A stretch of 36,591 bases of DNA from a bacterium. Its GTDB lineage: Bacteria > Patescibacteria > Dojkabacteria > SC72. Location: the NCBI GenBank assembly GCA_029553845.1, contig JAKPKF010000080.1, forward strand, positions 1 to 36,591. The letters run 5' to 3'. This document shows positions 5,710 to 28,482 of this stretch, piece after piece. A program made the translations under genes and the position numbers. Below the pieces are notes generated by a model. It ran no database searches, was not told the origin of the DNA, and worked only from the letters and a program-made list of their open reading frames with translations. Numbering within the stretch: the stretch's first letter is position 1; every line of letters begins with the position of its first letter.

Positions 5710-6720
5710 TTATTCCAACTTACTTTCATTAGAGAAGTACCACGATTTAGCTGCACTAGATATAAGACCACCCATTTTTGTTAGGTCTAAATTGTTAGCT
5801 CTAGCTGTATCTGATTCTTCCTTTAGAATATCATTATAAATCCACCGAATAAAATCACCGAGAGATGTACGATCTGTTGGTTTGTTTGCTTCTCTTAATT
5901 TATCTAAAGATTGCAAACATCTAGCTTCAGTTACTACAGAAGATACGAAATCTTTTTGATTTTTAATTAGCTCAACATCTACTGCGGCAAGTGTAGTAAC
6001 TTTACTTACACTATGTTTTTCACCCTTAACTTTCATCCAAAATTTGGGGGATTCCCACCCAGGGGTTACAACTTTCCATACAATACCTTCACCTACACCA
6101 GATACACCAAACGCTGCACCTACCGGGCATGAATTTTCAACTGCAAGTGTAAGTTCTTGCAGCTTGTTTTGTGATAATTCAGGATTATTAAAATCTATAG
6201 ATATTTTCCATGAAGGATAGTCGTATATGTTATATATTCCGATTTCATGATTACGTATATTGGATATCACACTACGAGGTTGCCATTCATCGTTGATATT
6301 AGCACCAAACACTATAAAGCGTTTAGATAAATTACTAATTGCTACACCCTTCTGTATTCCTTGACCACACCATTCACCAAATATAACTACATCATGTGCA
6401 GAATTACATACAGGTAAAAGTTTTAATATTTCTTTTTTCTTGTCGGTATAAGTACGCGCAAATCCTGCATTATCATTTAACGGTGTAATAATTCTTTCAC
6501 GACTTTGAAACCACAGTGCATCTTCACTCTTATTATAGCCTATGGCACCATTGGTTCCGTGTAGCTTAGTTGTACCTTCTAACTCTAATATAGGTAGTGG
6601 TTTCAATGGATCAAAAACCGCTACACCTGACTGATCTACACCAGTATACTGAGCAGTTTCCTTAACAGATCGTATAAGATTACGATATTGACCTATATCA
6701 GGAAATTTTATAAATTTCAT
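5710..6720 (-). CDS. RNA ligase, T4 Rnl2 family
   Basis: The 336-residue protein has the ordered nucleotidyltransferase motifs of Rnl2-type RNA ligases. Motif I is KLHGTN with the AMP-accepting lysine at K52; motif III is FGEWCG (115-120); motif IIIa is RFIVFGANI (135-143); motif IV is EGIVWK (212-217); motif V is FWMKVKG with lysines 231 and 233. The C-terminal third fits the Rnl2 helical domain. These enzymes seal nicks in RNA, often repairing cleaved tRNAs during infection. With the tRNA array and RNase Z nearby, a tRNA-repair role is likely but inferred. No polynucleotide kinase partner is seen in the window. Confidence 0.88.
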   Translation of the reverse strand: MKFIKFPDIGQYRNLIRSVKETAQYTGVDQSGVAVFDPLKPLPILELEGTTKLHGTNGAIGYNKSEDALWFQSRERIITPLNDNAGFARTYTDKKKEILKLLPVCNSAHDVVIFGEWCGQGIQKGVAISNLSKRFIVFGANINDEWQPRSVISNIRNHEIGIYNIYDYPSWKISIDFNNPELSQNKLQELTLAVENSCPVGAAFGVSGVGEGIVWKVVTPGWESPKFWMKVKGEKHSVSKVTTLAAVDVELIKNQKDFVSSVVTEARCLQSLDKLREANKPTDRTSLGDFIRWIYNDILKEESDTARANNLDLTKMGGLISSAAKSWYFSNESKLE

Positions 6721-7578: not shown

Positions 7579-7669
7579 TGGAGGTAGGTGTGGGATTCAA
7601 ACCCACGGCCCGCTATTAACGAACTTCTGTTTTCAAGACAGACGCTTTAAATCACTCAGCCAACCTACC
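7579..7669 (-). tRNA. tRNA-Ser(TGA)
   Basis: 91 nt class II tRNA with anticodon loop CTTGAAA, long variable arm, TTTGAAT T-loop and encoded CCA. The discriminator base is U rather than the usual bacterial serine G. Confidence 0.92.
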
Positions 7670-7675
7670 GTAAAA

Positions 7676-7763
7676 TGGAGGAGAGTGTGGGATTCGAACC
7701 CACGGACCTGTTAAGATCAAAACTTTAGCAAAGTTTCGTCATAAACCACTCGACCAACTCTCC
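7676..7763 (-). tRNA. tRNA-Ser(GCT)
   Basis: 88 nt class II tRNA. Anticodon loop TTGCTAA sits between AAACT and AGTTT; a long variable arm and encoded CCA are present. Again the discriminator is U. Confidence 0.92.
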
Positions 7764-7768
7764 AAAAA

Positions 7769-7842
7769 TGGCACGTCCCTTGAGACTTGAACTCAAACAT
7801 GATGTTTTGGAGACATCTGTGCTACATTGACACTAGAGACGT
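7769..7842 (-). tRNA. tRNA-Trp(CCA)
   Basis: 74 nt, anticodon loop CTCCAAA in a GATGT/ACATC stem, G discriminator and encoded CCA. Confidence 0.92.
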
Positions 7843-7874
7843 ATATAAAATATTTTTACAGAAATAGTAATAAA

Positions 7875-7909
7875 GACCGATCACGATAACTAATATACCG
7901 TGATCGGTC
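7875..7909 (-). terminator. Hairpin, likely terminator of the small membrane gene
   Basis: An 11-bp perfect stem (GACCGATCACG and its complement) with a 13-base loop, followed on the minus strand by TTTATTACTATTT. It lies just after the small gene at 7934-8026. It separates that gene from tRNA-Trp downstream. Confidence 0.5.
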
Positions 7910-7933
7910 CGTGTATTTATCTATTACAATATG

Positions 7934-8026
7934 TTAATATGTCGGTTTCTTCTTATTGTATTGATCTAATACAATAAAGAAGAAACCAGCTACTACATAT
8001 ACCGTAACGGCGTCAATAACGATCAT
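7934..8026 (-). CDS. Tiny single-pass membrane protein within the tRNA array
   Basis: A 30-residue frame starting MIVIDAVTVYVVAGFFF and ending in a polar NKKKPTY tail. Residues about 2-21 form one hydrophobic helix followed by lysines, which predicts a cytoplasmic C-terminus. The ATG at 8026 is preferred over the in-frame one at 8035 because an AAGGA element sits 8 bases upstream of it. A terminator-like hairpin follows. Function unknown; a tiny lysis, superinfection-exclusion or membrane modulator is possible. Confidence 0.45.
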   Translation of the reverse strand: MIVIDAVTVYVVAGFFFIVLDQYNKKKPTY

Positions 8027-8114
8027 TGGCGTCATCCTTTTCTGTGTTAATTGCTCTCCTCCTATTGGACTTGAGCGGTTATATTGTGATTTATGATATC
8101 ACAAATTGTAACAT

Positions 8115-8189
8115 TGGTGCTCGTACCTCGAGTCGAACGAGGATTTATTGATTCGTAGTCAATTGATCTATCCATTGATCTATACGAGC
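8115..8189 (-). tRNA. tRNA-Arg(ACG)
   Basis: 75 nt, anticodon loop CTACGAA, encoded CCA, discriminator A. The first anticodon base A would need conversion to inosine by host TadA to read CGC. Confidence 0.9.
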
Positions 8190-8196
8190 ATAAAAA

Positions 8197-8283
8197 TGGA
8201 GGTGCGTACGAGAGTCGAACTCGTATAGGGAAAATTCCCACTCTTTTGCAGAGAGCTCCGTATCCAATTCCGGTCACCGCACC
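8197..8283 (-). tRNA. tRNA with Cys anticodon (GCA) and long variable arm
   Basis: 87 nt. Anticodon loop CTGCAAA is flanked by GCTCT/AGAGT. The variable region is 15 nt and can form a GGGAA/TTCCC stem, so the molecule is class II, whereas bacterial tRNA-Cys is normally class I. The discriminator is U, a known cysteine identity base, and CCA is encoded. The D-arm text GGAATTGG resembles leucine tRNAs. It is probably cysteine-accepting, but mixed identity is possible. Confidence 0.8.
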
Positions 8284-8421
8284 AATTTGCCAGTAAGTGA
8301 ACTCTCGCTCTGGCGTGCCATCAATTACGCGTCACTTCCGCGACTCACCGTAAGCTGACTCGAGTGAGTAATACCGAATTTAAAGACGTATTTATGTTTC
8401 GTCTGTCACCAGCGGTAAAAA
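8284..8421 (-). other. Structured non-tRNA gap in the tRNA array
   Basis: These 138 bases contain no tRNA and no convincing reading frame. On the minus strand they hold several short hairpins, including GCCAG/CTGGC, ACTCAC/GTGAGT and CGCG/CGCG stems, and the stretch is less AT-rich than its surroundings. It may be a small structured RNA or the remains of deleted tRNAs. Confidence 0.35.
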
Positions 8422-8496
8422 TGGTGGTAGTAGTGAGAATCGAACTCACATCGTAGAGCTTATGAGACTCCTGTTCAGCCGTTGAACTATACTACC
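8422..8496 (-). tRNA. tRNA with CAT anticodon (elongator Met or Ile2)
   Basis: 75 nt, anticodon loop CTCATAA in a weak stem, A discriminator, encoded CCA. The D stem GTTC/GAAC has pyrimidine 11 and purine 24, as in elongators. Methionine versus lysidine-modified isoleucine cannot be decided from sequence. Confidence 0.85.
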
Positions 8497-8654
8497 AAAC
8501 ATCTCTCGTTGGGGTAGTTATTTCCTATAATTATTCCGAACTACTCTAATAGGTTTCGTTCGCCGAGCGTGGTTATCTCGGTGCTACTGCTCCCTGTGGG
8601 ATTTCGGGCATTCTTGATATAAATACCAAGACCGATCTTACGATCTGAGAGAAT
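8497..8654 (-). other. 158-base gap in the tRNA array
   Basis: No tRNA is seen. On the minus strand there are hairpins CCGAG/CTCGG (9-base loop) and a longer TAGTT/AACTA pairing. An open frame crosses it, but its start lies inside tRNA-Gly, so it is probably not coding. Confidence 0.3.
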
Positions 8655-8732
8655 TGGAGCGCTCTGAGGGACTCGAACCCTCACTTCAAGTTTGGAAAAC
8701 TCGATTGCTGAACCGTTAAACAATAAGAGCGC
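8655..8732 (-). tRNA. tRNA-Gly(TCC)
   Basis: 78 nt, anticodon loop TTTCCAA, perfect GCGCTCT/AGAGCGC acceptor stem, U discriminator, encoded CCA. Confidence 0.9.
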
Positions 8733-8738
8733 GTAAAA

Positions 8739-8827
8739 TGGTGGGGATACCGAGACTCGAACTCGGATTGAGTTTTACCTCATTTCGCTGTCTAAAAGCG
8801 ACGCTTTACCAATTTTGCTATATCCCC
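8739..8827 (-). tRNA. tRNA-Leu(TAG)
   Basis: 89 nt class II tRNA with anticodon loop TTTAGAC in a TCGCT/AGCGA stem, long variable arm, A discriminator and encoded CCA. Confidence 0.92.
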
Positions 8828-8834
8828 GAAATAG

Positions 8835-8923
8835 TGGGGCCTAAGAAGAGATTTGAACTCTTGTGCGGAGAAACTCCGTCCGGTTTACAAAACCGGTGCA
8901 ATCAACCACTATGCGACTTAGGC
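8835..8923 (-). tRNA. tRNA with Thr anticodon (TGT) on a serine-like class II body
   Basis: 89 nt. Anticodon loop TTTGTAA in a CCGGT/ACCGG stem, so it should read ACA. The variable region is 17 nt with a CGGAG/CTCCG stem, a class II feature not expected for tRNA-Thr. The D-arm to anticodon-stem text GGTTGATTGCACCGGT is close to bacterial tRNA-Ser(UGA). The discriminator is C and CCA is encoded. Since SerRS ignores the anticodon and recognises the long arm, serine charging is conceivable. Confidence 0.8.
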
Positions 8924-8929
8924 GTAAGA

Positions 8930-9006
8930 TGGGAGCGGAAGATGGAATCGAACCACGTCAGTAAGCTTATGAGACTAACCGGGGAGCCAGCACCCCTTCA
9001 ACCGCT
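8930..9006 (-). tRNA. tRNA with CAT anticodon, possibly initiator-like
   Basis: 77 nt, anticodon loop CTCATAA, encoded CCA. The D arm pairs GGGG with CCCC, which would place a purine at 11 and pyrimidine at 24 as in initiator tRNAs. The acceptor stem has two T-T mismatches and the T stem is weak, so it may be degenerate. Confidence 0.7.
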
Positions 9007-9008
9007 AA

Positions 9009-9084
9009 TGGTACCCCCGACGAGATTTGAACTCGTATAGATAGACTGAAAATCTATTATCCTAAACCGTTAGATGACAGGGGC
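9009..9084 (-). tRNA. tRNA-Glu(TTC)
   Basis: 76 nt, anticodon loop TTTTCAG in an ATAGA/TCTAT stem, A discriminator, encoded CCA. It follows the neighbouring tRNA by two bases. Confidence 0.9.
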
Positions 9085-9088
9085 AAAA

Positions 9089-9167
9089 TGGTGCAAGAGG
9101 TGGTAGTTGAAACCACACGAATTAACTGATTAAGAGTCAGTTGCCCGTCCACTGTAGCTTCTCTTGC
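9089..9167 (-). tRNA. tRNA-Lys(CTT)
   Basis: 79 nt, anticodon loop CTCTTAA in a perfect ACTGA/TCAGT stem, GCAAGAG/CTCTTGC acceptor stem, encoded CCA. Confidence 0.9.
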
Positions 9168-9176
9168 GTATTTAAA

Positions 9177-9253
9177 TGGTGGACACAGATGGGAATCAAA
9201 CCCACAACATCCTGAATGCAAATCAGGTGCTCTATCAATTGAGCTACTGGCCC
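9177..9253 (-). tRNA. tRNA-Ala(TGC)
   Basis: 77 nt, anticodon loop TTTGCAT in a CCTGA/TCAGG stem, encoded CCA. The acceptor stem has the G3-U70 pair that marks alanine tRNAs, but its lower half is poorly paired. Confidence 0.87.
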
Positions 9254-9265
9254 GTATAATACAAG

Positions 9266-9343
9266 TGGTGGGGATACACAGACTCGAACCGTGACATCTT
9301 TCGGATGTAAACCGAAGGTTTTAACCAATTAAACTATATCCCC
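9266..9343 (-). tRNA. tRNA-Val(TAC)
   Basis: 78 nt, anticodon loop TTTACAT in a TTCGG/CCGAA stem, perfect GGGGATA acceptor stem, encoded CCA. Confidence 0.92.
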
Positions 9344-9350
9344 GAAATAG

Positions 9351-9442
9351 TGGTGGGTACGGTTGGAATTGAACCAACAATGTTACCTTATAGGAATAGA
9401 TTTACAGTCTATCGTGACACAACCAGTAGTCACCTCATACCC
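9351..9442 (-). tRNA. tRNA-Tyr(GTA)
   Basis: 92 nt class II tRNA, as expected for bacterial tyrosine. Anticodon loop CTGTAAA in an ATAGA/TCTAT stem, encoded CCA. Confidence 0.92.
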
Positions 9443-9447
9443 AGAAA

Positions 9448-9522
9448 TGGTGCTGTCGGTCGGATTCGAACCGACACTTTACGATTTAAAAGAACGCTAC
9501 TTTACCATTAAGTTACAACAGC
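9448..9522 (-). tRNA. tRNA-Lys(TTT)
   Basis: 75 nt, anticodon loop CTTTTAA, A discriminator, encoded CCA. The anticodon stem has one T-T mismatch. A candidate promoter lies just upstream. Confidence 0.87.
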
Positions 9523-9551
9523 ATGTATAAATTGTCAAAGATCTTAATATC

Positions 9552-9579
9552 AATATATAATATATTGACAATATTGCAA
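9552..9579 (-). promoter_or_regulatory. Candidate internal promoter of the tRNA array
   Basis: On the minus strand TTGCAA, a 16-base spacer and TATATT lie in the only AT-rich gap between tRNA-Phe and tRNA-Lys(TTT). It would restart transcription for the distal tRNAs. The -35 resembles the TTGCAT boxes found elsewhere in this window. Confidence 0.4.
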
Positions 9580-9585
9580 CTAAAA

Positions 9586-9660
9586 TGGTGGGATAAGTCA
9601 GACTTGAACTGACAACACAGAGTGCTTCAAACTCCTGCTCTACATTGGAGCTATTATCCC
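9586..9660 (-). tRNA. tRNA-Phe(GAA)
   Basis: 75 nt, anticodon loop TTGAAGC, perfect GGGATAA acceptor stem, A discriminator, encoded CCA. Confidence 0.9.
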
Positions 9661-9675
9661 AAATATAAATTAACA

Positions 9676-9750
9676 TGGCGCCCTATACGAGACTTGAACT
9701 CGTAACCTTTCCTTAGACAGAGGACTGCTCTACGTTAGAGCTAATAGGGC
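9676..9750 (-). tRNA. tRNA-Asp(GTC)
   Basis: 75 nt, anticodon loop CTGTCTA, G discriminator as expected for aspartate, encoded CCA. Position 37 appears to be U rather than a purine. Confidence 0.88.
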
Positions 9751-9756
9751 TTAGAA

Positions 9757-9836
9757 TGGCTTCTGAGAATGGAGTTGAACCATTATCGAAAACACAGATT
9801 AACAGTCTGCCGGCTTACCAGTTAGCCTACTCAGAA
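9757..9836 (-). tRNA. tRNA-Asn(GTT)
   Basis: 80 nt, anticodon loop CTGTTAA in a GCAGA/TCTGT stem, G discriminator, encoded CCA, slightly long 9-nt variable loop. Confidence 0.9.
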
Positions 9837-9841
9837 ACAAA

Positions 9842-9916
9842 TGGCTGGGACCGAGTGAATTGAACACCCATACTGCGAGTCAAAGTCGCGTATAATAACC
9901 GTTATATGAGATCCCA
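9842..9916 (-). tRNA. tRNA-Gln(TTG)
   Basis: 75 nt, anticodon loop CTTTGAC, a U1-A72 first pair and G discriminator as in bacterial glutamine tRNAs, encoded CCA. Confidence 0.9.
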
Positions 9917-9921
9917 AATAG

Positions 9922-9997
9922 TGGTAGTCAAGGTGGGGTTCGAACCCACTTCCGTTGCGTTATCAACACAATGCTCATCCATATGAGCTTCTTGACT
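9922..9997 (-). tRNA. tRNA-Ile(GAT)
   Basis: 76 nt, anticodon loop TTGATAA, perfect AGTCAAG acceptor stem, A discriminator, encoded CCA. Confidence 0.92.
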
Positions 9998-10016
9998 GTA
10001 AATATGAATAATTCAA

Positions 10017-10090
10017 TATAAGCGCGGGGATTTGAACCCCGGATCTTTCCGCCCCAAACGGAACGCGATACCAAGCTACGCTACGCTTAT
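10017..10090 (-). tRNA. tRNA-Pro(TGG) without encoded CCA
   Basis: The anticodon loop is TTTGGGG in a TTCCG/CGGAA stem. Unlike the other 21 tRNAs of the array it has no CCA after the A discriminator. Its acceptor stem is instead extended to a 14-bp perfect helix (arms 10011-10024 and 10084-10097). Maturation would need 3' trimming, for example by RNase Z, and CCA addition. It is the first tRNA of the array. Confidence 0.9.
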
Positions 10091-10169
10091 ATTGAATCAT
10101 CCTATATCTCGATTAGCGTTATTATAACTCCGACGCTTGAGCGGCTTTAGTAATTTCAAAGATCAAAAA

Positions 10170-10389: not shown

Positions 10390-10875
10390 CTATTTTGATA
10401 TAATTTCTGCGTATTGATTATCGGATGCTAAACTTACTCCTAATATTTTATCAACATGCGGAATTTGATCAGGTACAAATCTACCAAACTTAACAATTAT
10501 ATTAGGGTATTGAGATAATTGATTTATTTGATCAATTATCTCAGATTTATTATATCCGGTATATATTACAATATCTGCATTTGTACTAGATCTAAAATCA
10601 GAAATTAATCCAAGTAGAAATTCAAAAGAATCAAAAGCTTCTAAACCCCCGATTACTAAAGCTTTAGTAATCGGGTTTTCATTAAAACGTTTGACTATTG
10701 ATAATGTATCTACCGTGATAGTGGGTAGACGTGATATTAAACTATTATGACACTTAACTTTAAAATTACATTCCTTCTCACACTTAAAAGTGCATGTAGG
10801 AAATGCGATATACATAGATGGTGTCTTATAATTTACAAAATCTTCATCAACAATAGTTTTAACGTGTATCAACAT
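10390..10875 (-). CDS. nrdG: Anaerobic ribonucleotide reductase activating protein (NrdG-like radical SAM)
   Basis: The 161-residue protein has an N-terminal iron-sulfur motif with C28, C32 and C36 (CTFKCEKEC), followed by C42, then a Rossmann-like core with VIGGLEAF and DIVIYTGY strands typical of NrdG. It lies one base after nrdD, whose glycyl radical such enzymes generate using S-adenosylmethionine and a 4Fe-4S cluster. Canonical NrdG has CX3CX2C; here the spacing is CX3CX3C, which fits a divergent subfamily of activases. The stop is TAG. Function is well supported by context. Confidence 0.82.
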   Translation of the reverse strand: MLIHVKTIVDEDFVNYKTPSMYIAFPTCTFKCEKECNFKVKCHNSLISRLPTITVDTLSIVKRFNENPITKALVIGGLEAFDSFEFLLGLISDFRSSTNADIVIYTGYNKSEIIDQINQLSQYPNIIVKFGRFVPDQIPHVDKILGVSLASDNQYAEIISK

Positions 10876-10876
10876 A

Positions 10877-12799
10877 TTACACTAAATCCTTAGTCATCTC
10901 AGCATGATCATACCAGCGTCGGGTTGTGAATTCCTTAAATCTATCCTTAGAATATGCTTTAGATGGTACTAGGTACCCCACAATTCGTTGATATGTATCA
11001 AATACTGGTTCACCACACTCAGGGCAATTATTACTACCGACGAATCCGTGATGATTTTTACATACGTTAATCTTGGTGTTGAATGCGAAATACATTACAC
11101 CGCTTTTTGCAATATATTGTAACATTTCCCAGGCACTTTCAGTGTTAGGGAAATTATTTTCAATGTTGATATGTGCGATAGCACCACCAGAGCATTTCTT
11201 ATCTAAAATAGAACTCAATCTAACCTTTTCATTAATTGAGCACTTTTCAGATAACGGAATCCATTGATTTGAATATATGAACTTACCGGTAGATCCAAAC
11301 AATAGGTTATCTTTCTGACATAATACGATTGCGCAACGCTCAGCTGGAACAGATTCCACATTAAATGAATAATCTTTTGTGAATGAGTCTTTTACTTCGT
11401 TAATCGCATCGAATATCTTACTAGCTAACTCAATACCCTCAGGTGTATAACTCTTATATCCGAATTCATCTGTTTTAATATATCCAAATGATTCTACTAC
11501 TTCATACAATCCGAGAATACCTACCGTGCAATATTGTTTAGCCATTTCAATACCACCATCAGTATAATTAGGTAGTAGACCCTTTTCAATGTTTCGTTGA
11601 ATAATATGTCTAATAACATCTAATGTTTTACAACATAGAGTAACTCGCTTCTTTAATATACTAAGATACTTCTTTTCGTCCTTATTAGATTCAAGAGCAA
11701 CACGCATTAAATTGACAGTATTAACCTTAACAGAACCAATAGATAATGCGGTACCACCGATAGAATTAATAAAAGCGCTTAGTTTTGATGTATCTGATAC
11801 TAAACGGCAGCAGTTTGATAGAGATGTTACATCTTCACTAATAAAGAAATTACTATCATTCCATGTAGTATTATGATCACTACACCATTTAGCAAATTCT
11901 TCATCTACGAATTTACCATCTCTATACAGTAGTGAATAAGTTAATACAGGGAAAGTAAATAGATTTTCTTTACGGATATTAGATACCACTTCCATGAAAA
12001 TCTTTTGATGTGTAATAATGTTTTCAATCTCATCAATTACATACGTACCGTCGGGGTATTGAACGCCACCAAATAATGACTGTAGGTAATTACGATCAAA
12101 AATTGTCATATTTACGAATGCAGTTTGATCTACCCGCATGAATGGTTGATTCAATCGGTATACTAATTTCTGGAATATTTGACGGACATAATAATCCTTA
12201 TCTTTAATAATATGTCCTGTTTCACAGTCCTTTTTCCAGAAATAATATGTCCAGATTAATACATTTGCGATGCCCACCGCACCGCTAGATCTATTTGATG
12301 TATAACTGATATACTCAATAACATCATCAATAAATGTGGTTAGATGTTTAGGTGCTTTAGCATTGTATTTACCTAAGAAGAATAAACCTTCAGTTGCTAG
12401 TCGAGTTAAATCGTATGAATAGCAATATGGCATGAATGTCGATGTGTGAGAGTCATGTAGGTACATAGCCCCAGTATATTCAGCTTCAAGCCAATCCTTT
12501 GCTGTTTTTAGTCCATACTTCTTCTTAAGTTCATAGAATATCTTATTAAATGCAAAAAGTTTATCGTGTGATTTTCCCTTTTCAGATAATAAACTTCTAA
12601 TATCTCTCGTGGAAGCATTTGCATTAGAATCAATAGTTGCATCTGCAACACTCTTATCGATAAAACCATCAATAAAATCTGAGAAATTTAGTTGAGAATC
12701 ATGAAAGCCGTTAAGCAATTCAAAATCTTCACCATATTCGCTTGAAATCTTATGATATGCGCTTTCGAAATCTTTTTTAACTTTTACTGTAGTAATCAT
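10877..12799 (-). CDS. nrdD: Anaerobic ribonucleoside-triphosphate reductase (class III)
   Basis: The 640-residue protein carries the NrdD pattern throughout: LHDSHTSTFMPYCYSYDL in the N-terminal half, NRSSGAVGIANVLIWTYYF, and a C-terminal zinc region containing CPECG. The glycyl radical motif RIVGYL places the radical glycine at about G608. It reduces ribonucleotides to deoxyribonucleotides without oxygen, using NrdG for activation. The protein is shorter than the E. coli enzyme and seems to lack an N-terminal ATP-cone, so allosteric activity control may be missing. It overlaps the glutaredoxin gene by 4 bases and is followed directly by nrdG, forming a compact operon. Confidence 0.93.
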   Translation of the reverse strand: MITTVKVKKDFESAYHKISSEYGEDFELLNGFHDSQLNFSDFIDGFIDKSVADATIDSNANASTRDIRSLLSEKGKSHDKLFAFNKIFYELKKKYGLKTAKDWLEAEYTGAMYLHDSHTSTFMPYCYSYDLTRLATEGLFFLGKYNAKAPKHLTTFIDDVIEYISYTSNRSSGAVGIANVLIWTYYFWKKDCETGHIIKDKDYYVRQIFQKLVYRLNQPFMRVDQTAFVNMTIFDRNYLQSLFGGVQYPDGTYVIDEIENIITHQKIFMEVVSNIRKENLFTFPVLTYSLLYRDGKFVDEEFAKWCSDHNTTWNDSNFFISEDVTSLSNCCRLVSDTSKLSAFINSIGGTALSIGSVKVNTVNLMRVALESNKDEKKYLSILKKRVTLCCKTLDVIRHIIQRNIEKGLLPNYTDGGIEMAKQYCTVGILGLYEVVESFGYIKTDEFGYKSYTPEGIELASKIFDAINEVKDSFTKDYSFNVESVPAERCAIVLCQKDNLLFGSTGKFIYSNQWIPLSEKCSINEKVRLSSILDKKCSGGAIAHINIENNFPNTESAWEMLQYIAKSGVMYFAFNTKINVCKNHHGFVGSNNCPECGEPVFDTYQRIVGYLVPSKAYSKDRFKEFTTRRWYDHAEMTKDLV

Positions 12800-15053: not shown

Positions 15054-15569
15054 ATGGCTGATGATTTTCCGTCTTTACAAGTTGATGACTTATTGAATCA
15101 ATTACGTACAACTCCCCCAGATTTTATCGTTAAGAGTGATAGTAGTAATAATTCTATACTAGAATCATTATCAACTGAACCTGTAAAAGAGGAGGATCTT
15201 GGTGATTATATTATCAAGAAGACGACAACCTTAGTGGATCAGACAATGTCTGCTTTTAAAGATATAAAAAATATAGCGGTAGCGTCTAATGACCCAGATA
15301 CAATATCAGCATTAGCTGATTTAGTAAAAGCTGCTAATTCTGCTATAGATAGCTTAAATAAAATCAATATGCAGAATAAAAAACTAAAATCTGCAAAAGA
15401 AGTTGCTGCTATATATGCTGCAGCAAAAGCTAAAGAAGATAAACCACCTTCCAGTACGAATATTATTACAATCGGTTCCAGAGAGGAAGTATTGAAAATA
15501 TTAGATCAAGCTAAACAAAAATCTTCAGCAATTGATGCTGAATATACGGAACAAACACTATCTACTTAA
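15054..15569 (+). CDS. Terminase small subunit-like protein (T4 gp16 type)
   Basis: The 171-residue protein has an acidic N-terminus, then DLGDYIIKKTTTLVDQTM, a long amphipathic helical hairpin (about 60-125) ending in LNKINMQNKK, and a C-terminal strand segment STNIITIGSREEVLKIL. This order matches T4 gp16: an acidic DYG element, two long antiparallel helices with a LHK/MKD-like end, then NI...GSP.ELMDE. It would recognise DNA for packaging and stimulate the large terminase. No large terminase lies in the window. The call rests on architecture read by eye and is moderate. Its end overlaps the convergent macro-domain gene by 8 bases. Confidence 0.55.
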   Translation: MADDFPSLQVDDLLNQLRTTPPDFIVKSDSSNNSILESLSTEPVKEEDLGDYIIKKTTTLVDQTMSAFKDIKNIAVASNDPDTISALADLVKAANSAIDSLNKINMQNKKLKSAKEVAAIYAAAKAKEDKPPSSTNIITIGSREEVLKILDQAKQKSSAIDAEYTEQTLST

Positions 15570-16077
15570 CGTACTTAGGATTTTTAACGAATACAACATT
15601 TACTAGATGGGTAATACAACCGTCATTGTAGAATACACTATTAACTATAGATTTCACGGTATCCCAATCCCCACCTGCTAATCCACAAGATAGGTTATAT
15701 GGTAACCCGACTAATATTGAATTAGTATCTAGTGTTGTATTATCTGTAGTTTTTGATAGTGCAAAACTCTTTACTTTTTGTAGTGCATCATTTAATGCAT
15801 CATAACTAACAAATCTACCATTAGAACCATAACTTGCCTGTGTATACATATTGATAATATGCTTACCTGTTTGTATATCACTGCATATAGAAATATTACC
15901 TAGAGTGTTCACTCCATTCTCACTAGCATTAGTATCTACCTTGTATACATCGGGGTATCGTTGTTTGATTTGTAGAGCTATACCGGCTCCCATCGTATTT
16001 CTGCAATTACAACTATGAGCTATAATATCTATACCTTGTGGAAAATCAAGCAAATCTCCTGTTATGGTATTAATCAT
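15562..16077 (-). CDS. Macro-domain protein, candidate ADP-ribose eraser
   Basis: From the ATG at 16077 the protein has 171 residues; a TTG at 16089 is a less likely start. It begins TGDLLDFPQGIDIIAHSCN, then NTMGAGIALQIKQRYP (loop 1, residues 28-42) and ends with LPYNLSCGLAGGDWDTV, the Poa1p/TARG1-type substrate loop with D137. Such domains bind or hydrolyse ADP-ribose, ADP-ribose-1-phosphate or ADP-ribosyl-protein links. It lies downstream of a PARP gene on the same strand, suggesting it reverses or buffers that modification. Its ATG overlaps the TGA of the broken upstream gene. Confidence 0.85.
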   Translation of the reverse strand: MINTITGDLLDFPQGIDIIAHSCNCRNTMGAGIALQIKQRYPDVYKVDTNASENGVNTLGNISICSDIQTGKHIINMYTQASYGSNGRFVSYDALNDALQKVKSFALSKTTDNTTLDTNSILVGLPYNLSCGLAGGDWDTVKSIVNSVFYNDGCITHLVNVVFVKNPKYVK

Positions 16078-16392
16078 AATGTAATACAATAAAGTATCTT
16101 ACACAGTATATGTAGTATTTGATCTTCATGAGAATTAATGTGTCTATCACATTTTATCATATCTATCACATAATGACATAGTAATTCTACGAATGCATAT
16201 ATTACATTACCTGTAATTAACTATACTACACCTGCATGTATAAGTGAATGTGACAATAACCAATATCGCCAATTAGGAGATTGTATATTATCTCTAGGTA
16301 TGTTAGGGTTTTTTACCTTTAGCCATTGCATCTGACTGTAATGCAAAATCAGCAACCGCATGACCAATAATTAGCTTAAACAGTAGTTCCAT
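16074..16392 (-). pseudogene. DUF3307-like small membrane protein, frameshifted and with an internal TAG
   Basis: The first frame gives MELLFKLIIGHAVADFALQ up to AKGKKP and stops at TAA (16303-16305). Shifting +1 at the CCC before that stop gives NIPRDNIQSPNWRYW, LLSHSLIHAGVV, then an in-frame TAG at 16221-16223, then LITGNVIYAFVELL and HEDQILHILCKILYC. Together these match the DUF3307 family (GH..ADF.LQ, H..IH, HxxxD..K, H.DQ.LHI). The final TGA overlaps the macro gene's ATG, as expected for an intact operon member. Two independent lesions suggest decay; CCC followed by TAA could also be a +1 recoding site, but that would not rescue the TAG. Confidence 0.7.
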
Positions 16393-16564
16393 AATTAGTG
16401 GGGGTTATGTTCTGTATCTGTATTTTATCTTTACAATCTTTACAATCTACTATAACTTTAGTGTTGAAACTCTCCGTATTTTTCTTACTCCAATCAATAT
16501 CATCATAATTATTACGAAATTGATTGGAGTAGTTATTTCTGGGTCTGTCACCTTTACCGTTCAT
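16376..16564 (-). CDS. Small conserved phage protein (MNGKGDRPR type)
   Basis: The 62-residue protein starts MNGKGDRPRNNYSNQFRNNYDDIDW, a pattern met in many small phage proteins with GKGDxPR followed by FR.NYD.I.W. The end has a CKDCKDK pair of cysteines. Function is unknown in all. It overlaps the start of the DUF3307-like gene by 17 bases and lies shortly after the gene at 16577. Confidence 0.6.
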   Translation of the reverse strand: MNGKGDRPRNNYSNQFRNNYDDIDWSKKNTESFNTKVIVDCKDCKDKIQIQNITPTNYGTTV

Positions 16565-16576
16565 ATGTCGTGTAAG

Positions 16577-16883
16577 CTAAACGTACTCGTTCCCAATGCA
16601 ATGCTCTCTATCACAATCCATACCTAGTGGATAATAACTTTTACTCATATTTTTATCCGCCCGTGCTATATTATCTTTTATGAATAATTCATCAAGTTCA
16701 GTTTGAATTTGTTTCTGGGTGTGTGGGGTGAGTAGTGAGTAGTGGCCACGCTTTAACTAGATCATCAGCGAAACAACAAGAATGTATCGTCATACGGCCG
16801 ACGAAATACCTAAACGACCAAAACACTAATTCATCCACACCACCCTGAAAACACTTAGATAGAAGCACATCTTTATTTTTCAT
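16577..16883 (-). pseudogene. Small phage protein of the FRYxxGRMT type, split by a +1 shift
   Basis: The first frame (start 16883) gives MKNKDVLLSKCFQGG, then VFWSFRYFVGRMTIHSCCFADDLVKAWPLL and a stop near 16698. The +1 frame then reads TQKQIQTELDELFIKDN through GMDCDREHC and ends at TAG (16577-16579). Phage proteins of this kind have FRYALGRMT, a tryptophan helix, then Q..I..E and a D-rich end, so both pieces look like one gene. The switch must lie in a CACCCC/ACACACCC stretch near 16715-16725. A sequencing error, mutation or programmed shift would each fit. The start overlaps the ACP-like gene's stop by 4 bases. Confidence 0.6.
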
Positions 16884-17695
16884 GTTAAATTAATAGTGTA
16901 TTTATTAAAGGCTATACTACGATCACCAACTAATTTATAACCAATCTTTCTAGCTGTAGTTGCTATGATTTCAACTGTAGTACCCGGTACTTTCTTAACC
17001 ATAGCTTTTTGTGCATTACGAAGTGTAGGATTATATCCCTTACTATGAGCTTTCATGATATATCCCTTAAGTAATGAATTTAGGTTATAAATCTTAGGTT
17101 TAGTGGTTGGTGAGTGGAGTTTTGATAAATTATTAACTACCGTCGGTTTATATCCAATCGTATCTACTACTATAGTGTATGGTGTTAAATGTTCACTATT
17201 ACAAAACCTAATACCCGCTGAATCGGTAATATTAATCTTTAATACGAATTCAAGATTCATAAGAAATTCAATACGATCTAAATCATCTAATTTTGATCCA
17301 AAATCAGTATGAATTGTAATATTACTCTTAGATATACCTGTAGCATCCTCAATTATAGATAACACTTCATCATATTTAGAATATGAAGTAACATCGATTA
17401 ATTGCGATACTAGCTTATATTCATACCATGAATTAGCACCATAGTTAGTATGTAATCTACGTGTAAGATTACCATTCATGTATAGTGATTCAATGACCTT
17501 TTTAACTGTTGAGTGTGAAACATTTTGAGTGTTTACATTATCAACTTTAAGCGAATCATTTTGAAATTCGGTTATAGTATATAGCTTATTATTTACATCA
17601 TCTCTTATTGCTTGTGTAACATCATAAGCGGAAAATACGCTATTTGCAAAGTCTGTGTTAATAATATCCGTAACAGCTTGAATTAGTGGTTTCAT
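16880..17695 (-). CDS. Winged-helix / ACP-like / RNAQKA-module fusion protein
   Basis: This 271-residue protein seems to have three parts. Residues 1-95 look like a winged helix (YDVTQAIRDDVN, then VSHSTVKKVIESLYMNGNLTRR). Residues 107-182 follow acyl-carrier-protein spacing: YDEVLSIIEDATG, ITIHTDFGSKLDDLDRIEF, LNLEFVLKINI, TPYTIVVDTI. The phosphopantetheine serine of the DSL motif appears as D138 in DDLD, so it should not carry acyl groups. Residues 205-258 (PTLRNAQKAMVKK, then ARKIGYKL) match the C-terminus of the rIIB protein. It sits directly after the PARP gene, so it may guide or be a target of ADP-ribosylation; that is speculation. Confidence 0.6.
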   Translation of the reverse strand: MKPLIQAVTDIINTDFANSVFSAYDVTQAIRDDVNNKLYTITEFQNDSLKVDNVNTQNVSHSTVKKVIESLYMNGNLTRRLHTNYGANSWYEYKLVSQLIDVTSYSKYDEVLSIIEDATGISKSNITIHTDFGSKLDDLDRIEFLMNLEFVLKINITDSAGIRFCNSEHLTPYTIVVDTIGYKPTVVNNLSKLHSPTTKPKIYNLNSLLKGYIMKAHSKGYNPTLRNAQKAMVKKVPGTTVEIIATTARKIGYKLVGDRSIAFNKYTINLT

Positions 17696-17747
17696 AAATG
17701 ATATGTGCTATATGATAGGTGTGAATCATTATATTTCAACAATATAA

Positions 17748-18995
17748 TTACTCAAATTCTACTAAATATGTGAGATCAAATTGGTTTTCATTATATACAA
17801 TCATTTCATTATTGATCACACCTGATACTCCAGCTTTAGCAAATGTAGAATTATATCCACTTTTAGGGTATGATCCGTAATAATTAACAGGAGTAAAAGC
17901 ATTACCCATTGCAACATTACAAAGGAACATAAAACAGTTCGTTTCATACTTACCGTCCCAATATCCATACGAGTAGTTTAAAGATTTAGTACTCTGATCA
18001 CTGAAATAGCATCCATGACCATATAGTTTACCGGCGATGGTCGCGGTATTAGGTGGTGTCACTTTAAGTCCACCCTTAAGGATTGATAATATATTAGCCT
18101 TTTTAGTACCGTGCCACAATTCTTGTATATTACCAATACTTTTACCTGTATTAAACCTCGATCTTACAGTTTCAATATGTACTGTATAAATTTCCTTGAT
18201 ATGTAACCTATGAGATGAGTGGCTAGATTTCTTAGTACTATCAAATTTTCGTTGAATCCTATTGCGCTCATTAACATCAGTACAGATATCCATTTCAACA
18301 TTAAATACTGGGGGTGTATTAGCCGTTAATGTGGGTACACCGGTTGTAGTGGGTTGTTGAGATGCTTGATAACTAGATTGTAGTGAATCAAGAATATCAT
18401 TCTGTTTGATCAATAGTTCATCACTACCAAAAATCTTACGAATATCAAACTTCATGCCAATATCTTGAGGTATGATTCTCAAATACTGAGAGATGTCTGA
18501 TTTAACATCATCTAAATTACGAGCTTTTTTAATCTTTGCTAGTATATCGCGAGCCTCATCAATACCGGTAGGTGTAACAATACCCAGCGGTGTAGTAAAT
18601 AAACCAGTATTTGCATTATACTGAATTTGTGTAGATGAGGTGATCTGGTGGATGTTAGCTTTGATTAACCTATCAATCAGCTTATCAAGTACTGGTGTCT
18701 TTGTTCGTATCTCTTTTTTAGCTATGACACTAACATCAGATATAACACTAACACTTGGTGTATTAGATGAAACCGTCTTGAGGTGTGTATACCCCTTACG
18801 AAGTTTTTCTTTTTCTTTTGTATCGAGAAAATGTTGACCCGCAGATGGATGTTTTTTAGATTGTGAAGCTTTACCTACACGACCCCACTCTACGATCACA
18901 TCATTATTATCATATAGTGTACCGGTCCAATACTTATTGTTATTAGCATCGACATCACACATGATGAGCCGTACGGTATTGATTATATTAGGCAT
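17748..18995 (-). CDS. WGR-domain poly(ADP-ribose) polymerase-like enzyme
   Basis: The 415-residue protein has the PARP1 C-terminal architecture. Residues about 8-72 are a WGR domain (EWGRVGKASQS, FLDTKEKEKLRKGY). Residues about 100-212 look like the helical regulatory domain. Residues about 230-415 form the ART domain with LWHGTKKANI (H295), YGHGCYFSDQSTKSLNYS (Y330) and NEMIVYNENQ (E397), giving the full H-Y-E triad of polymer-forming PARPs. It should transfer ADP-ribose from NAD+, probably stimulated by DNA ends through WGR. The RNase Z gene ends 4 bases upstream. T4 uses different, R-S-E-type ARTs, so a PARP-type enzyme in a phage is notable. Confidence 0.9.
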   Translation of the reverse strand: MPNIINTVRLIMCDVDANNNKYWTGTLYDNNDVIVEWGRVGKASQSKKHPSAGQHFLDTKEKEKLRKGYTHLKTVSSNTPSVSVISDVSVIAKKEIRTKTPVLDKLIDRLIKANIHQITSSTQIQYNANTGLFTTPLGIVTPTGIDEARDILAKIKKARNLDDVKSDISQYLRIIPQDIGMKFDIRKIFGSDELLIKQNDILDSLQSSYQASQQPTTTGVPTLTANTPPVFNVEMDICTDVNERNRIQRKFDSTKKSSHSSHRLHIKEIYTVHIETVRSRFNTGKSIGNIQELWHGTKKANILSILKGGLKVTPPNTATIAGKLYGHGCYFSDQSTKSLNYSYGYWDGKYETNCFMFLCNVAMGNAFTPVNYYGSYPKSGYNSTFAKAGVSGVINNEMIVYNENQFDLTYLVEFE

Positions 18996-18999
18996 GATA

Positions 19000-19848
19000 T
19001 TAGATTCTGAAGGTTTTGTTATACTGTACGGTGATTATTTGAGTCATACCGTTCAAACCGTTCACAGCATTAAAGATTTGATCTGTATTGTATCTACCAC
19101 TAAAGTGCGCGGCAACCATACGCTTAACATTGTATCTATTACACAAATCATATGACTCTTGCAGTGTATAATGTTTATCTCCCTTACGATCTTTATGATT
19201 AATAAAGGTACAATCCATTACTACATATTCAGCATCTTTAATATCATCACCATTAATCTTATATGCATCAAGCGCATATGCAAAAATGGTGGCTTTATAT
19301 GCTTCCATTATATAAGCTTTAGATACAATACCAGACTTAAGTAGTTCGGGTACGTTCCGACCTATATATTCTGGTCGTAGCTTATTCCGAGTTTCAACAA
19401 TTCGGTAACCTAGAGATAATACATTTTGTTGATGATGTGTTGTAAATGTCTCAATGTGAATTAATCCGTTAGTTCCGGGTATATTTATATTAGTACCACT
19501 TTTAACCGGAACCCATTGTAATTCAAAATTTAATCCACCTCGTATAGTATACTGATTGACGATAAAGATCTTAATAGATTCAACCAATACATCTCCATCC
19601 GGATAGTAAATGGTTAGTGGTTTATTCTTATCACCTCTCGCGGAATTACGAGACCATACTAATGATGGTAAACCTAAAATATGATCACCATGACCATGAG
19701 AAATACAAACCCGCTCCACACCAAAAATATGATTACCTTGATATGTTGCAAAACCTTCACCACAATCAAACAATGTTCTGGTTGGAATATGATAACACCA
19801 GGTGGAATACATTGCTTTTGATTGAATCTCAATGGTTGTATTATTCAT
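19000..19848 (-). CDS. rnz: RNase Z-like metallo-beta-lactamase endonuclease
   Basis: The 282-residue product has the RNase Z signature SHGHGDHILGLPSL with H51, H53, D55 and H56 binding zinc. It also has THHQQNVLSLGYRIVE, MDCTF and a late AHFSGRY metal histidine. RNase Z cuts tRNA precursors after the discriminator base. With the tRNA array present, a role in maturing tRNA-Pro, which lacks CCA, is reasonable; an encoded CCA usually blocks the enzyme. It may have other RNA targets. It opens the PARP operon and has its own promoter and an upstream terminator. Confidence 0.85.
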   Translation of the reverse strand: MNNTTIEIQSKAMYSTWCYHIPTRTLFDCGEGFATYQGNHIFGVERVCISHGHGDHILGLPSLVWSRNSARGDKNKPLTIYYPDGDVLVESIKIFIVNQYTIRGGLNFELQWVPVKSGTNINIPGTNGLIHIETFTTHHQQNVLSLGYRIVETRNKLRPEYIGRNVPELLKSGIVSKAYIMEAYKATIFAYALDAYKINGDDIKDAEYVVMDCTFINHKDRKGDKHYTLQESYDLCNRYNVKRMVAAHFSGRYNTDQIFNAVNGLNGMTQIITVQYNKTFRI

Positions 19849-19929: not shown

Positions 19930-21009
19930 TTACTTTACTATTCGAACATCTGACAAACTACTATAATTATGATCTAATATATATCCTGCATCATAAAGTA
20001 TATCACGTATATCACCTACTGATACACCTTTAACGGCTTTTTGTGCATTACGAATGGTAGGAAAGATTCCTAACTTCAACCTACCATTAACATACTTGAT
20101 AAGTTTTACTTTAACATCTTCTGTTTTAAGTTTTTGTGTACCACCAATTTCAACATTACTAACTTTATTAACCTTCTTGGTGTTTTTAACAGGTGGTGCC
20201 CAAGTATCGAGGTTGATAATTTCTGTATGTGGTGGTATGCTATTATCACTCCAACCAATATCTCGAACTACTTTCATTTTACAGCATCTACCTTTAGAAT
20301 TTTCATATGTAGTCGGGATAGATACTACATCCATAGGATCTACTTCAACTAAAAATCTCTTAGATGATTTATCGCCACCGAAATGGTAGTTATAGTAGTT
20401 AATAGATGCAAAATATAAACCTCTACCAGAACATACACCCCTACTACTATCTACCTTCTCTCTATCCATTTCTACACATTTACCCACTTCATACAAAATA
20501 GTACCGGAATGGTGATCATAACCATCTGATCGTGTTACTTTATATGCAAGAAATGTACCATTGGTGGTAATCGGTAGATCATTAACCGCAATAAAATCTA
20601 GTAATCCAGATTGAATAATATTATCCGGATTTCTTGCAATCTTATTCAATAGATTATAATATGCGGTAATATCATATCCGCTATAAAACCAGTCAGCAAT
20701 TTTCTTAGTTAGTTTATTATTAAACGTTAACTTACCAACCGTAATATTACCATTATTATCAACCTTAAGTTTCGGTATTTTACTGTTTTTAGATTTCTTA
20801 TTAAATTCTTTAACTATCTTCTTTGTTGCTGTCTTAATGTATCCATATTCACCTAATAATGATTCAATACCAGATGGTGTACCAGTCTTTACAGAATTAT
20901 ATATCTTTTCATATCCGGGATCTGATTTTAATATTTGATATGATTTACCATTAAGAGTTACTACTAACTGCTTAGGTGTAGATATGTAGCTAATTTTTAA
21001 TTTTTTCAT
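19930..21009 (-). CDS. rIIB: rIIB-like protein with extra C-terminal RNAQKA module
   Basis: The 359-residue protein has the rIIB core: LLDFIAVNDLPITTNGTFLAYK, SGTILYEVGKCVEM, CSGRGLYFASINYY, FGGD, and VEVDPMDVVSIPTTYENSKGRCC. In T4, rIIB works with rIIA and is linked to lysis timing and protection against Rex exclusion; its biochemistry is poorly known. An N-terminal region resembles a DNA/RNA-binding tail. The last about 55 residues (FPTIRNAQKAVKG, then LYDAGYIL) repeat a module found in the winged-helix/ACP-like protein. The gene follows rIIA by 25 bases. Confidence 0.82.
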   Translation of the reverse strand: MKKLKISYISTPKQLVVTLNGKSYQILKSDPGYEKIYNSVKTGTPSGIESLLGEYGYIKTATKKIVKEFNKKSKNSKIPKLKVDNNGNITVGKLTFNNKLTKKIADWFYSGYDITAYYNLLNKIARNPDNIIQSGLLDFIAVNDLPITTNGTFLAYKVTRSDGYDHHSGTILYEVGKCVEMDREKVDSSRGVCSGRGLYFASINYYNYHFGGDKSSKRFLVEVDPMDVVSIPTTYENSKGRCCKMKVVRDIGWSDNSIPPHTEIINLDTWAPPVKNTKKVNKVSNVEIGGTQKLKTEDVKVKLIKYVNGRLKLGIFPTIRNAQKAVKGVSVGDIRDILYDAGYILDHNYSSLSDVRIVK

Positions 21010-27273: not shown

Positions 27274-28482
27274 GTGGTCCTTAAAGCCTACAAATATCGA
27301 ATTTATCCAACCGAGTCTCAGAAAGTTCTACTTTCCAAGACTTTTGGTTGTGTTCGATATGTTTATAATCGAGGCTTACATTTGAAAACTTCAGTTTATC
27401 AAACTGAAAAGAAAGGTCTTTCCGTTTTTGAAATCATGAATCAAATGGCTAAATGGAAGGAAACTGAGGAAGCGAAATGGTTGAAAGAAGTTAATAGTCA
27501 ATCACTTCAAATGAGTTTGAGAAACTTAGATATGGCTTTTACTAGGTTTTTTAAAGAGAAAGGGGGGTTTCCTAAGTTCAAAAGTAAATATGACGGGCAA
27601 TCTTTTGCAAACCCCCAAGGTACAAAAGTTGATTGGGATAAGTCATTAGTTTCGATTCCAAAATTTAAAAAAGGAATTAAAGCGGTTTTTCATCGTCAAT
27701 TTGAGGGAAAAATCAAATCTTCAACAGTTTCAAGAACACCTACGGGAAATTTTTTCATTTCAATTTTAGTCGAGGAAAACGTTGATCTACCTAAACTTCC
27801 AGAAAAAGACGAAAATAAATGTATTGGAATTGACCTCGGTCTAAAAGACTTCGCAATCCTGTCTGACGGAACGAAGATCAAAAATCCGAAACATCTCAAA
27901 AGTAATCTAAAAAGATTGGCAAAAGCTCAACGTAAGTTAGCTAAAAAGAAGAAGTTATCAAAGAATCGAGAAAAACAAAAAAGAAAAGTAGCAAAAATTC
28001 ATGAAAAAGTAGCAAATTGTAGGAAAGATTTTCTTCATAAAACAACTGCTAGTTTAACCAAAAACCAAAGTTACACTAGTATAGCTGTCGAAGATTTAAA
28101 CGTAAGTGGAATGTTAAAAAATCAAAAATTATCTAGGTCAATTTCAGATGTAGGTTGGGGGGCTTTTAAACAGTTTCTCTCTTACAAATGTAATTGGTAT
28201 GGAAAAAATCTGATTGAAATCGGAAGGTTTGAACCGAGTTCAAGGCTTTGTGATTGTGGATATTACAATCATGAGTTGACTTTGAAAGATCGGGTCTGGA
28301 CTTGCCCGATTTGTAAGAAAACTCACGATAGAGATGTTCTCGCGGCGAACAACATTAAAAGGTTCGCTTTCAGAGAACAAAACACGTATAAAGAAGAATT
28401 TTTACCGCCGGAACAGCGGGATTTCAAGCCTGTGGAGAAAAACATTGGTTTTTCTGTGAAGCAGGAAGCCACAGCCCTTTAG
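27274..28482 (+). CDS. tnpB: TnpB RNA-guided endonuclease
   Basis: The 402-residue protein starts at a GTG (VLKAYKYRIYPTESQ, the typical TnpB opening with FGCVRYVYN). The RuvC residues are D187 in GIDLGLKD, E273 in AVEDLNV and D354 in HDRDVLAANN, all present. A lysine-rich bridge lies at 210-250. The zinc finger has C344/C347 but an unusual CDC (C326, C328) in place of CxxC. TnpB cuts DNA beside a short TAM using an omega-RNA made from the element's right end, which helps the element persist. It appears intact. Confidence 0.93.
   Translation: MVLKAYKYRIYPTESQKVLLSKTFGCVRYVYNRGLHLKTSVYQTEKKGLSVFEIMNQMAKWKETEEAKWLKEVNSQSLQMSLRNLDMAFTRFFKEKGGFPKFKSKYDGQSFANPQGTKVDWDKSLVSIPKFKKGIKAVFHRQFEGKIKSSTVSRTPTGNFFISILVEENVDLPKLPEKDENKCIGIDLGLKDFAILSDGTKIKNPKHLKSNLKRLAKAQRKLAKKKKLSKNREKQKRKVAKIHEKVANCRKDFLHKTTASLTKNQSYTSIAVEDLNVSGMLKNQKLSRSISDVGWGAFKQFLSYKCNWYGKNLIEIGRFEPSSRLCDCGYYNHELTLKDRVWTCPICKKTHDRDVLAANNIKRFAFREQNTYKEEFLPPEQRDFKPVEKNIGFSVKQEATAL

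Follow-up and report, generated by a model that had tools for sequence, protein, structure and literature searches.

In animals PARPs have a central part in the signalling of DNA breaks, and one that has WGR and helical domains should remain silent until it meets a DNA end. Bacteria and phages also encode enzymes of the PARP1/2/3 type, such as Herpetosiphon HaPARP, Clostridioides CdPARP, XacN1 BBA65562.1 and those of Cellulophaga phi4:1 and Aeromonas phage Aeh1, which have the H-Y-E catalytic domain in common. Phage PARPs have already been published (PMC4245714, PMC7824862), PART-family viral ADP-ribosyltransferases (ARTs) were reported in PMC9503650, and HaPARP and CdPARP are reported to be DNA-dependent (PMC5966428); these and all further papers are cited from excerpts of their text. 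Gene pairs of an ADP-ribose writer and an eraser are likewise known from phages, namely ART-ARG in Aeromonas phages and sirtuin-Macro in phage Moab (PMC9503650). Here we describe a PARP gene from a 36,591-nt stretch of DNA (contig JAKPKF010000080.1 of assembly GCA_029553845.1, hereafter the window). The initial annotation of this stretch had read PARP and a macro-domain protein as writer and eraser in one phage operon, and had missed that the gene next to PARP encodes a predicted winged-helix domain. The conserved pair of PARP and winged helix is our strongest finding and the result we consider worth following. A winged-helix partner is not mentioned in the excerpts of PMC4245714, PMC7824862 and PMC5966428 on phage and bacterial PARPs. 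In the open-licence literature we found no description of the pair (the winged helix was named in only part of the search) and no paper combining WGR domain, phage genome and PARP.

The PARP of the window

The PARP gene (17748..18995, minus strand) encodes 415 aa, and the reading of this protein in the initial annotation, a WGR-regulatory-ART enzyme with an H295-Y330-E397 triad, was borne out. In Pfam the WGR domain (about 18783-18974) scored 37.1 bits against a cut-off of 22, and the ART catalytic domain with the triad (about 17751-18305) 98.6 bits against 26.7. The helical regulatory region (about 18336-18713, the limits being our reading of the Pfam, PHROG and PARP1 alignments) gave a weak match of 17.2 bits against a cut-off of 26.8, and the alignment to PARP1 spans it; PF02877 is carried by many of the listed homologues. 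PARP1 is the best solved relative, aligned over all three domains, and PHROG 23333, described only as 'polymerase', matches residues 10-415. H295, Y330 and E397 are conserved without exception in the 25 aligned PARPs, the window's included. At the level of sequence the protein is thus confirmed as a PARP of the PARP1/2/3 type, with what appears to be the order of WGR, regulatory and catalytic domains of HaPARP/CdPARP-type enzymes, and activation by DNA as well as ADP-ribosylation are predicted from its family. Identity to full-length matches in the annotated phage collection reaches at most 35.5%; closer relatives are metagenomic proteins, with 50% identity to the nearest row of our tree.

In total 15 of 50,697 phage records and 1,988 relatives in a protein collection matched PARP. 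A scan of viral contigs with a single PARP found nothing, and a query built from the 25-sequence alignment yielded 74 loci in IMG/VR. No PADLOC model matched the PARP of the window or its winged-helix partner.

A winged-helix gene downstream of PARP

The gene directly downstream of PARP (16880..17695, minus strand) encodes a protein of 271 aa. Residues 1-98 (about 17402-17695) have a predicted winged-helix fold and residues 104-183 (about 17147-17386) the four-helix fold of an acyl carrier protein; the helical C-terminal domain (about 16883-17083) is common to the rIIB-like protein of the window (19930-21009; E 1.1e-7, the partner of the window being part of the profile used). In acyl carriers the DSL/ID motif holds the serine that takes the phosphopantetheine arm. 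In contrast to acyl carrier proteins, the carrier fold of the window is fused between two other domains and reads LDDLD, with D at the attachment-serine position, as also in the homologues P0242-P0245.

Open reading frames (ORFs) were called up to 10 kb on each side of PARP and clustered without prior choice at 82 PARP loci (the window and 81 loci fetched of 82), which represent 56 lineages (70% PARP identity). Directly downstream of PARP two families were conspicuous. They share one domain, the winged helix, in which most members carry the motif F-[ST]-x-x-D-[VI]-T. In the first family a helical 'PTLKQIQ' domain comes next, and the 271-aa protein belongs here, with the acyl-carrier fold inserted; in the second the winged helix is followed by what we read as an AbrB-like part, for which only the member at locus L010 matched Pfam (PF14250, 3e-4, below cut-off). 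A winged-helix profile match lies at most 2.5 kb downstream of PARP in 38 of the 82 loci and 22 of the 56 lineages (20 lineages within 1.5 kb; 42 loci and 26 lineages anywhere). No other family is found within 2.5 kb of PARP in more than 6 lineages on the downstream and 5 on the upstream side. Taken singly, the two winged-helix families recur in 11 and 7 lineages. Other recurrent neighbours are a GIY-YIG homing endonuclease family (12 lineages, on both strands and sides), DNA ligase (8), RNA ligase (7) and carrier-domain proteins (6). With Pfam run on one member per family, GIY-YIG/LAGLIDADG families were seen within 100 bp of PARP at 11 loci of 10 lineages (L010, L025, L027, L028, L031, L047, L048, L051, L058, L080 and L081).

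Whole records were searched for 50 of the 82 loci, comprising seven of the eight from annotated phages (not L008), all of L009-L037 and 14 of L038-L067, the latter taken only from contigs of at least 64 kb, with L068-L082 not represented. As the loci are listed roughly in order of falling match quality, this set leans towards PARPs nearer to that of the window. As controls we used 38 contigs of at least 71 kb out of the best 80 of 515 loci matched by an rIIA alignment (A7); PARP was over cut-off in none of the 38, and one had a weak match below it. The winged helix is present in 34 of the 50 PARP records, in single copy in 33, and in none of the 38 controls; it is absent from all seven searched records of the annotated phage collection. 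Of its 35 places 26 lie within 2.5 kb and 31 within 15 kb of PARP, the latter all downstream and on the same strand, where random placement expects 1.1 and 4.9 (0 of 20,000 trials as extreme). Of the four places beyond 15 kb, one is a second copy in G005 and the others are in G030 (E 0.004), G025 (9e-5) and G036 (3e-7).

The linkage was also recovered from the side of the partner. Scans of viral contigs seeded with three winged-helix alignments yielded 16 loci (1, 9 and 6), 13 of them on contigs of input rows, and the remaining three all carry PARP: the L041 contig, whose winged-helix copy is identical to an input row, the L028 contig, where the two lie 14 kb apart, and L182, a 435,946-bp contig found via the winged helix alone and absent from the PARP list. 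The PARP of L182 is a divergent protein of 550 aa (4e-14; WGR 21.3 bits against the cut-off of 22), followed 1.3 kb downstream by the winged helix and then by an ADP-ribosylglycohydrolase (2.4e-49). Six bacterial or archaeal contigs with PARP were examined as well, and three of the genomes hold one winged-helix match each. In a metagenome-assembled genome (MAG) of the Armatimonadaceae the winged helix (10468-11235) lies about 1.6 kb downstream of PARP (L183:7585-8898) on a 104-kb contig, near genes that look bacterial to us and that we read as RecN, NAD kinase and a sigma factor; in the other two genomes winged helix and PARP are on different contigs.

In a quick maximum-likelihood tree of 55 PARPs (midpoint-rooted), we labelled the 30 whose partner lies no more than about 15 kb away, leaving out the weak match of L007 (E 0.009). 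The label requires 6 changes, as compared to 18.3 when shuffled; the partner is present in every row of the starred 10-row set that includes the window and is missing from another starred set, of 15 rows. Because the label needs so few changes and such sets with and without partner exist, the pair looks old and seems to have been lost or replaced at least once. A clustered label is also what vertical inheritance predicts if the two genes were merely passed on side by side, with no functional dependence. We consider this distinctly unlikely, as the linkage holds down to about 40% PARP identity and below while other neighbours change, and the pair recurs on a bacterial contig. A pair of toxin and repressor or antitoxin, in which the winged helix would repress the operon or restrain PARP and release of the toxin would shut down the host or a competing phage, is an unlikely explanation too. 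The two-gene order, the single copy in 33 of 34 records, the strict side and strand and the weak AbrB-like match at L010 would suit it; the partner, however, comes after PARP, and in many toxin-antitoxin pairs the antitoxin gene precedes the toxin. The set of 15 PARPs that do without the partner also speaks against such a pair.

We see about even chances that large phages hold a PARP module with a DNA-end-activated PARP and its winged-helix partner as the core and with erasers as facultative members. DNA ends or nicks, arising in the infected cell from host DNA breakdown, replication intermediates or restriction, would switch on PARP via its WGR and helical domains, and the activated enzyme would mark proteins or DNA ends at such sites. 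The winged-helix protein, presumably a DNA-binding one, would bring PARP to particular DNA or serve as the DNA-bound acceptor of the mark. Erasers encoded mostly elsewhere in the genome and sometimes in the same array would clear ADP-ribose marks or products; their identity would vary, from a macro domain of the Poa1p/TARG1/DarG class in the window to other macro domains or an ADP-ribosylglycohydrolase elsewhere. That the tails of the partners are variable, and that one is a carrier fold without the attachment serine, suggests that they act as adaptors. A partner gene that tracks PARP provides a handle in the form of one partner, one candidate acceptor and a set of candidate erasers, and the pairing makes the question of the targets of phage PARPs testable.

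A carrier-domain gene is found near PARP in part of the 15-row set without partner. The carrier family in PARP lineages without winged helix is represented by L062:11208-12254, which keeps a DSID motif, with relatives in L003, L055, L060, L073 and L075. An acyl-carrier link as a general rule for PARP was rejected: PF00550, a model that does not pick up every carrier-like protein (that of L003 for one), matched in 6 of 50 PARP records (5 over cut-off) and in none of the 38 controls, and in two of the six within 1.4 kb of PARP.

Macro domains and other candidate erasers in PARP genomes

The macro-domain protein is encoded on the same strand at 15562..16089, with a likely ATG start at 16077. Pfam and PHROG identify a macro domain, which an AlphaFold2 model (pLDDT 90.1) places in the TARG1/Poa1p/DarG class, as the initial annotation had proposed (Poa1p/TARG1 type); the fold matches this class above other macro domains, with the lowest Poa1p rows not clearly above the others. 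The profile searches and the structure prediction, for which this protein was modelled, thus showed the enzyme families to have been named correctly. The TKK lysines of DarG (5m3i), which we take to be catalytic, align with TQA in the window, so that the catalytic lysine is lacking at this position, and Q84 is invariant in an alignment of 20 rows. Regarding the residues mutated in PDB entries of Poa1p, the alignment places H25 at the position of H23 and T32 at that of S30. The protein may clear the mark of PARP or handle soluble ADP-ribose derivatives. The PADLOC model of DarG matches over its macro part, the protein of the window being stand-alone and without the C-terminal domain of DarG. 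Membership in DarG was rejected, as the full-length model, matched over 1-135 of 338, reaches 49.5 bits against a cut-off of 250 and the lysines are missing at the aligned positions. A phage antitoxin mimic (PMC11481870) was rejected as a parallel as well; in the excerpt it is a 77-aa DarT binder.

In the initial annotation PARP and the macro protein formed a dedicated pair of writer and eraser, in which the macro protein would remove the ADP-ribose added by PARP and the genes would be selected together. Such a pair, supported here in part, would be compatible with the module proposed above, and we regard it as rather improbable. Co-occurrence at the level of the genome stood: phrog_335 macro domains are found in 28 of the 50 PARP records and PF01661 adds three, making 31 with macro. 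Among these are 21 of the 24 PARP records of at least 180 kb, compared with 56% of jumbo phages in a survey that used other methods (PMC9503650; binomial 1e-3). The 31 records hold 37 macro places, of which 10 lie within 10 kb of PARP, all on its strand, with 2.3 expected by random placement (0 of 20,000 trials as extreme). In L011/L035 the macro gene is adjacent, 253 bp upstream of PARP, and L014 repeats the order PARP, winged helix, macro, the last 1.3 kb downstream of PARP. The ten near places come, however, from six PARP lineages (near-copies being L009/L024, L011/L035 and L002/L004/L005), and the placement test ignores kinship. Tight pairing and co-conservation of the two genes for the most part did not stand: every macro gene is more than 10 kb from PARP in 21 of the 31 records, in 19 of the 50 no macro was detected, and in the 50,697 phage records relatives of the window's macro protein occur in 2,885 as against 15 with PARP. 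The TQA in place of the DarG lysines also counts against a dedicated eraser.

Compared with controls, phrog_335 is more frequent in PARP records (28/50 versus 8/38, p = 0.001), also among those of at least 100 kb (23/35 versus 7/26, p = 0.004). In closer size classes the difference was 10/18 versus 7/24 at 100-250 kb (p = 0.12) and 18/24 versus 3/7 at 180 kb and above (p = 0.17), and therefore genome size may account for part of the excess; macro domains are common in large phages. ADP-ribosylglycohydrolase (PF03747) was searched in a set of 50 in which L018 and L067 were replaced by L182 and the bacterial MAG L164. It occurs in 13 of the 50, or in 12 of 49 without the MAG versus 0 of 38 controls (p = 9e-4). 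At 180 kb and above the counts are 11 of 25 PARP records and 0 of 7 controls, and about 5% of jumbo phages are given in the excerpt of PMC9503650. In L011/L035 and L182, on the same strand, and in L008 this non-homologous eraser is a near neighbour of PARP (within 5 kb). No ORF of at least 55 aa near PARP has the signature of PARG, GGG-X6-8-QEE (taken from an excerpt of PMC5966428). Erasers as a class thus follow PARP and are enriched in PARP phages, and macro domains and ADP-ribosylglycohydrolases are frequent companions that are seldom beside it. Like the ART-ARG and sirtuin-Macro pairs, the window has a writer and an eraser of ADP-ribose in one phage; those pairs, as far as the excerpt of PMC9503650 goes, are predicted toxin-antitoxin systems with other writers, whereas here the writer is a PARP and the eraser is usually distant from it in PARP phages.

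For the macro gene taken by itself, the evidence leans slightly towards a role independent of PARP, which is likewise compatible with the PARP module. We find it quite possible, if somewhat short of probable, that the protein is a Poa1p-like ADP-ribose-1''-phosphate phosphatase of RNA repair or counters host ADP-ribose signals, and that it came to lie near PARP by chance in a dense accessory array. It matches Poa1p in sequence and fold, its relatives occur in many records that have no PARP match, and the window holds 22 tRNA genes, an RNA ligase and an RNase Z-like gene. Phage domains that target ADP-ribose have moreover been argued to act mostly on soluble derivatives (PMC9503650, excerpt). 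This fits less well with the excess of erasers of two folds in PARP phages over controls, with T32 at the position that we align with S30 of Poa1p, and with the lack of a KptA match among the 20 ORFs of the window run against Pfam (of 83 listed).

For the PARP module, a further step is tentative and on balance doubtful. Large phages and at least one bacterium would have a two-gene response to DNA breaks, with the winged-helix protein as the DNA-bound acceptor or targeting factor of PARP, and erasers of at least two unrelated folds would complete a reversible cycle of ADP-ribosylation on viral or host DNA complexes. If true, prokaryotes would possess a counterpart to PARP1 and its partnership with histones or HPF1.

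Gene array and phage surroundings

PARP and macro genes are not adjacent. Apart from the 271-aa gene they are separated by an ORF of 61 aa (16698..16883), which overlaps the end of the partner gene, an ORF of 62 aa (16376..16564), both on the minus strand and without a Pfam match, and a stretch of 286 bp without an intact ORF (16090..16375, minus strand). This last stretch, which separates the 62-aa ORF from the macro gene, resembles by eye a decayed small gene in its one-frame translation with stops. On the other side an RNase Z-like metallo-hydrolase (19000..19848, minus strand; Lactamase_B_2 1.1e-10 in Pfam, TIGR02650 3.4e-43 but below cut-off) ends 4 bp ahead of the PARP start. A search of the array for promoters or a single-operon signal gave promoter-like matches only at chance level. 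A single operon, as assumed in the initial annotation, is possible for the PARP array. The phage setting was upheld. The window also holds rIIA- and rIIB-like proteins, a clamp loader, a class III ribonucleotide reductase, an RNA ligase, 22 tRNA genes (7579-10091) and, by our reading of the translation, a dUTPase, a gene content characteristic of a large phage.

The RNase Z-like gene, the 22 tRNA genes and the RNA ligase (5710-6720) possibly represent a phage set for tRNA maturation. A TnpB-family RNA-guided nuclease is encoded at 27274-28482 (NF040570, over cut-off), and five lineages, that of the window among them, have a member of this family at most 10 kb from PARP.

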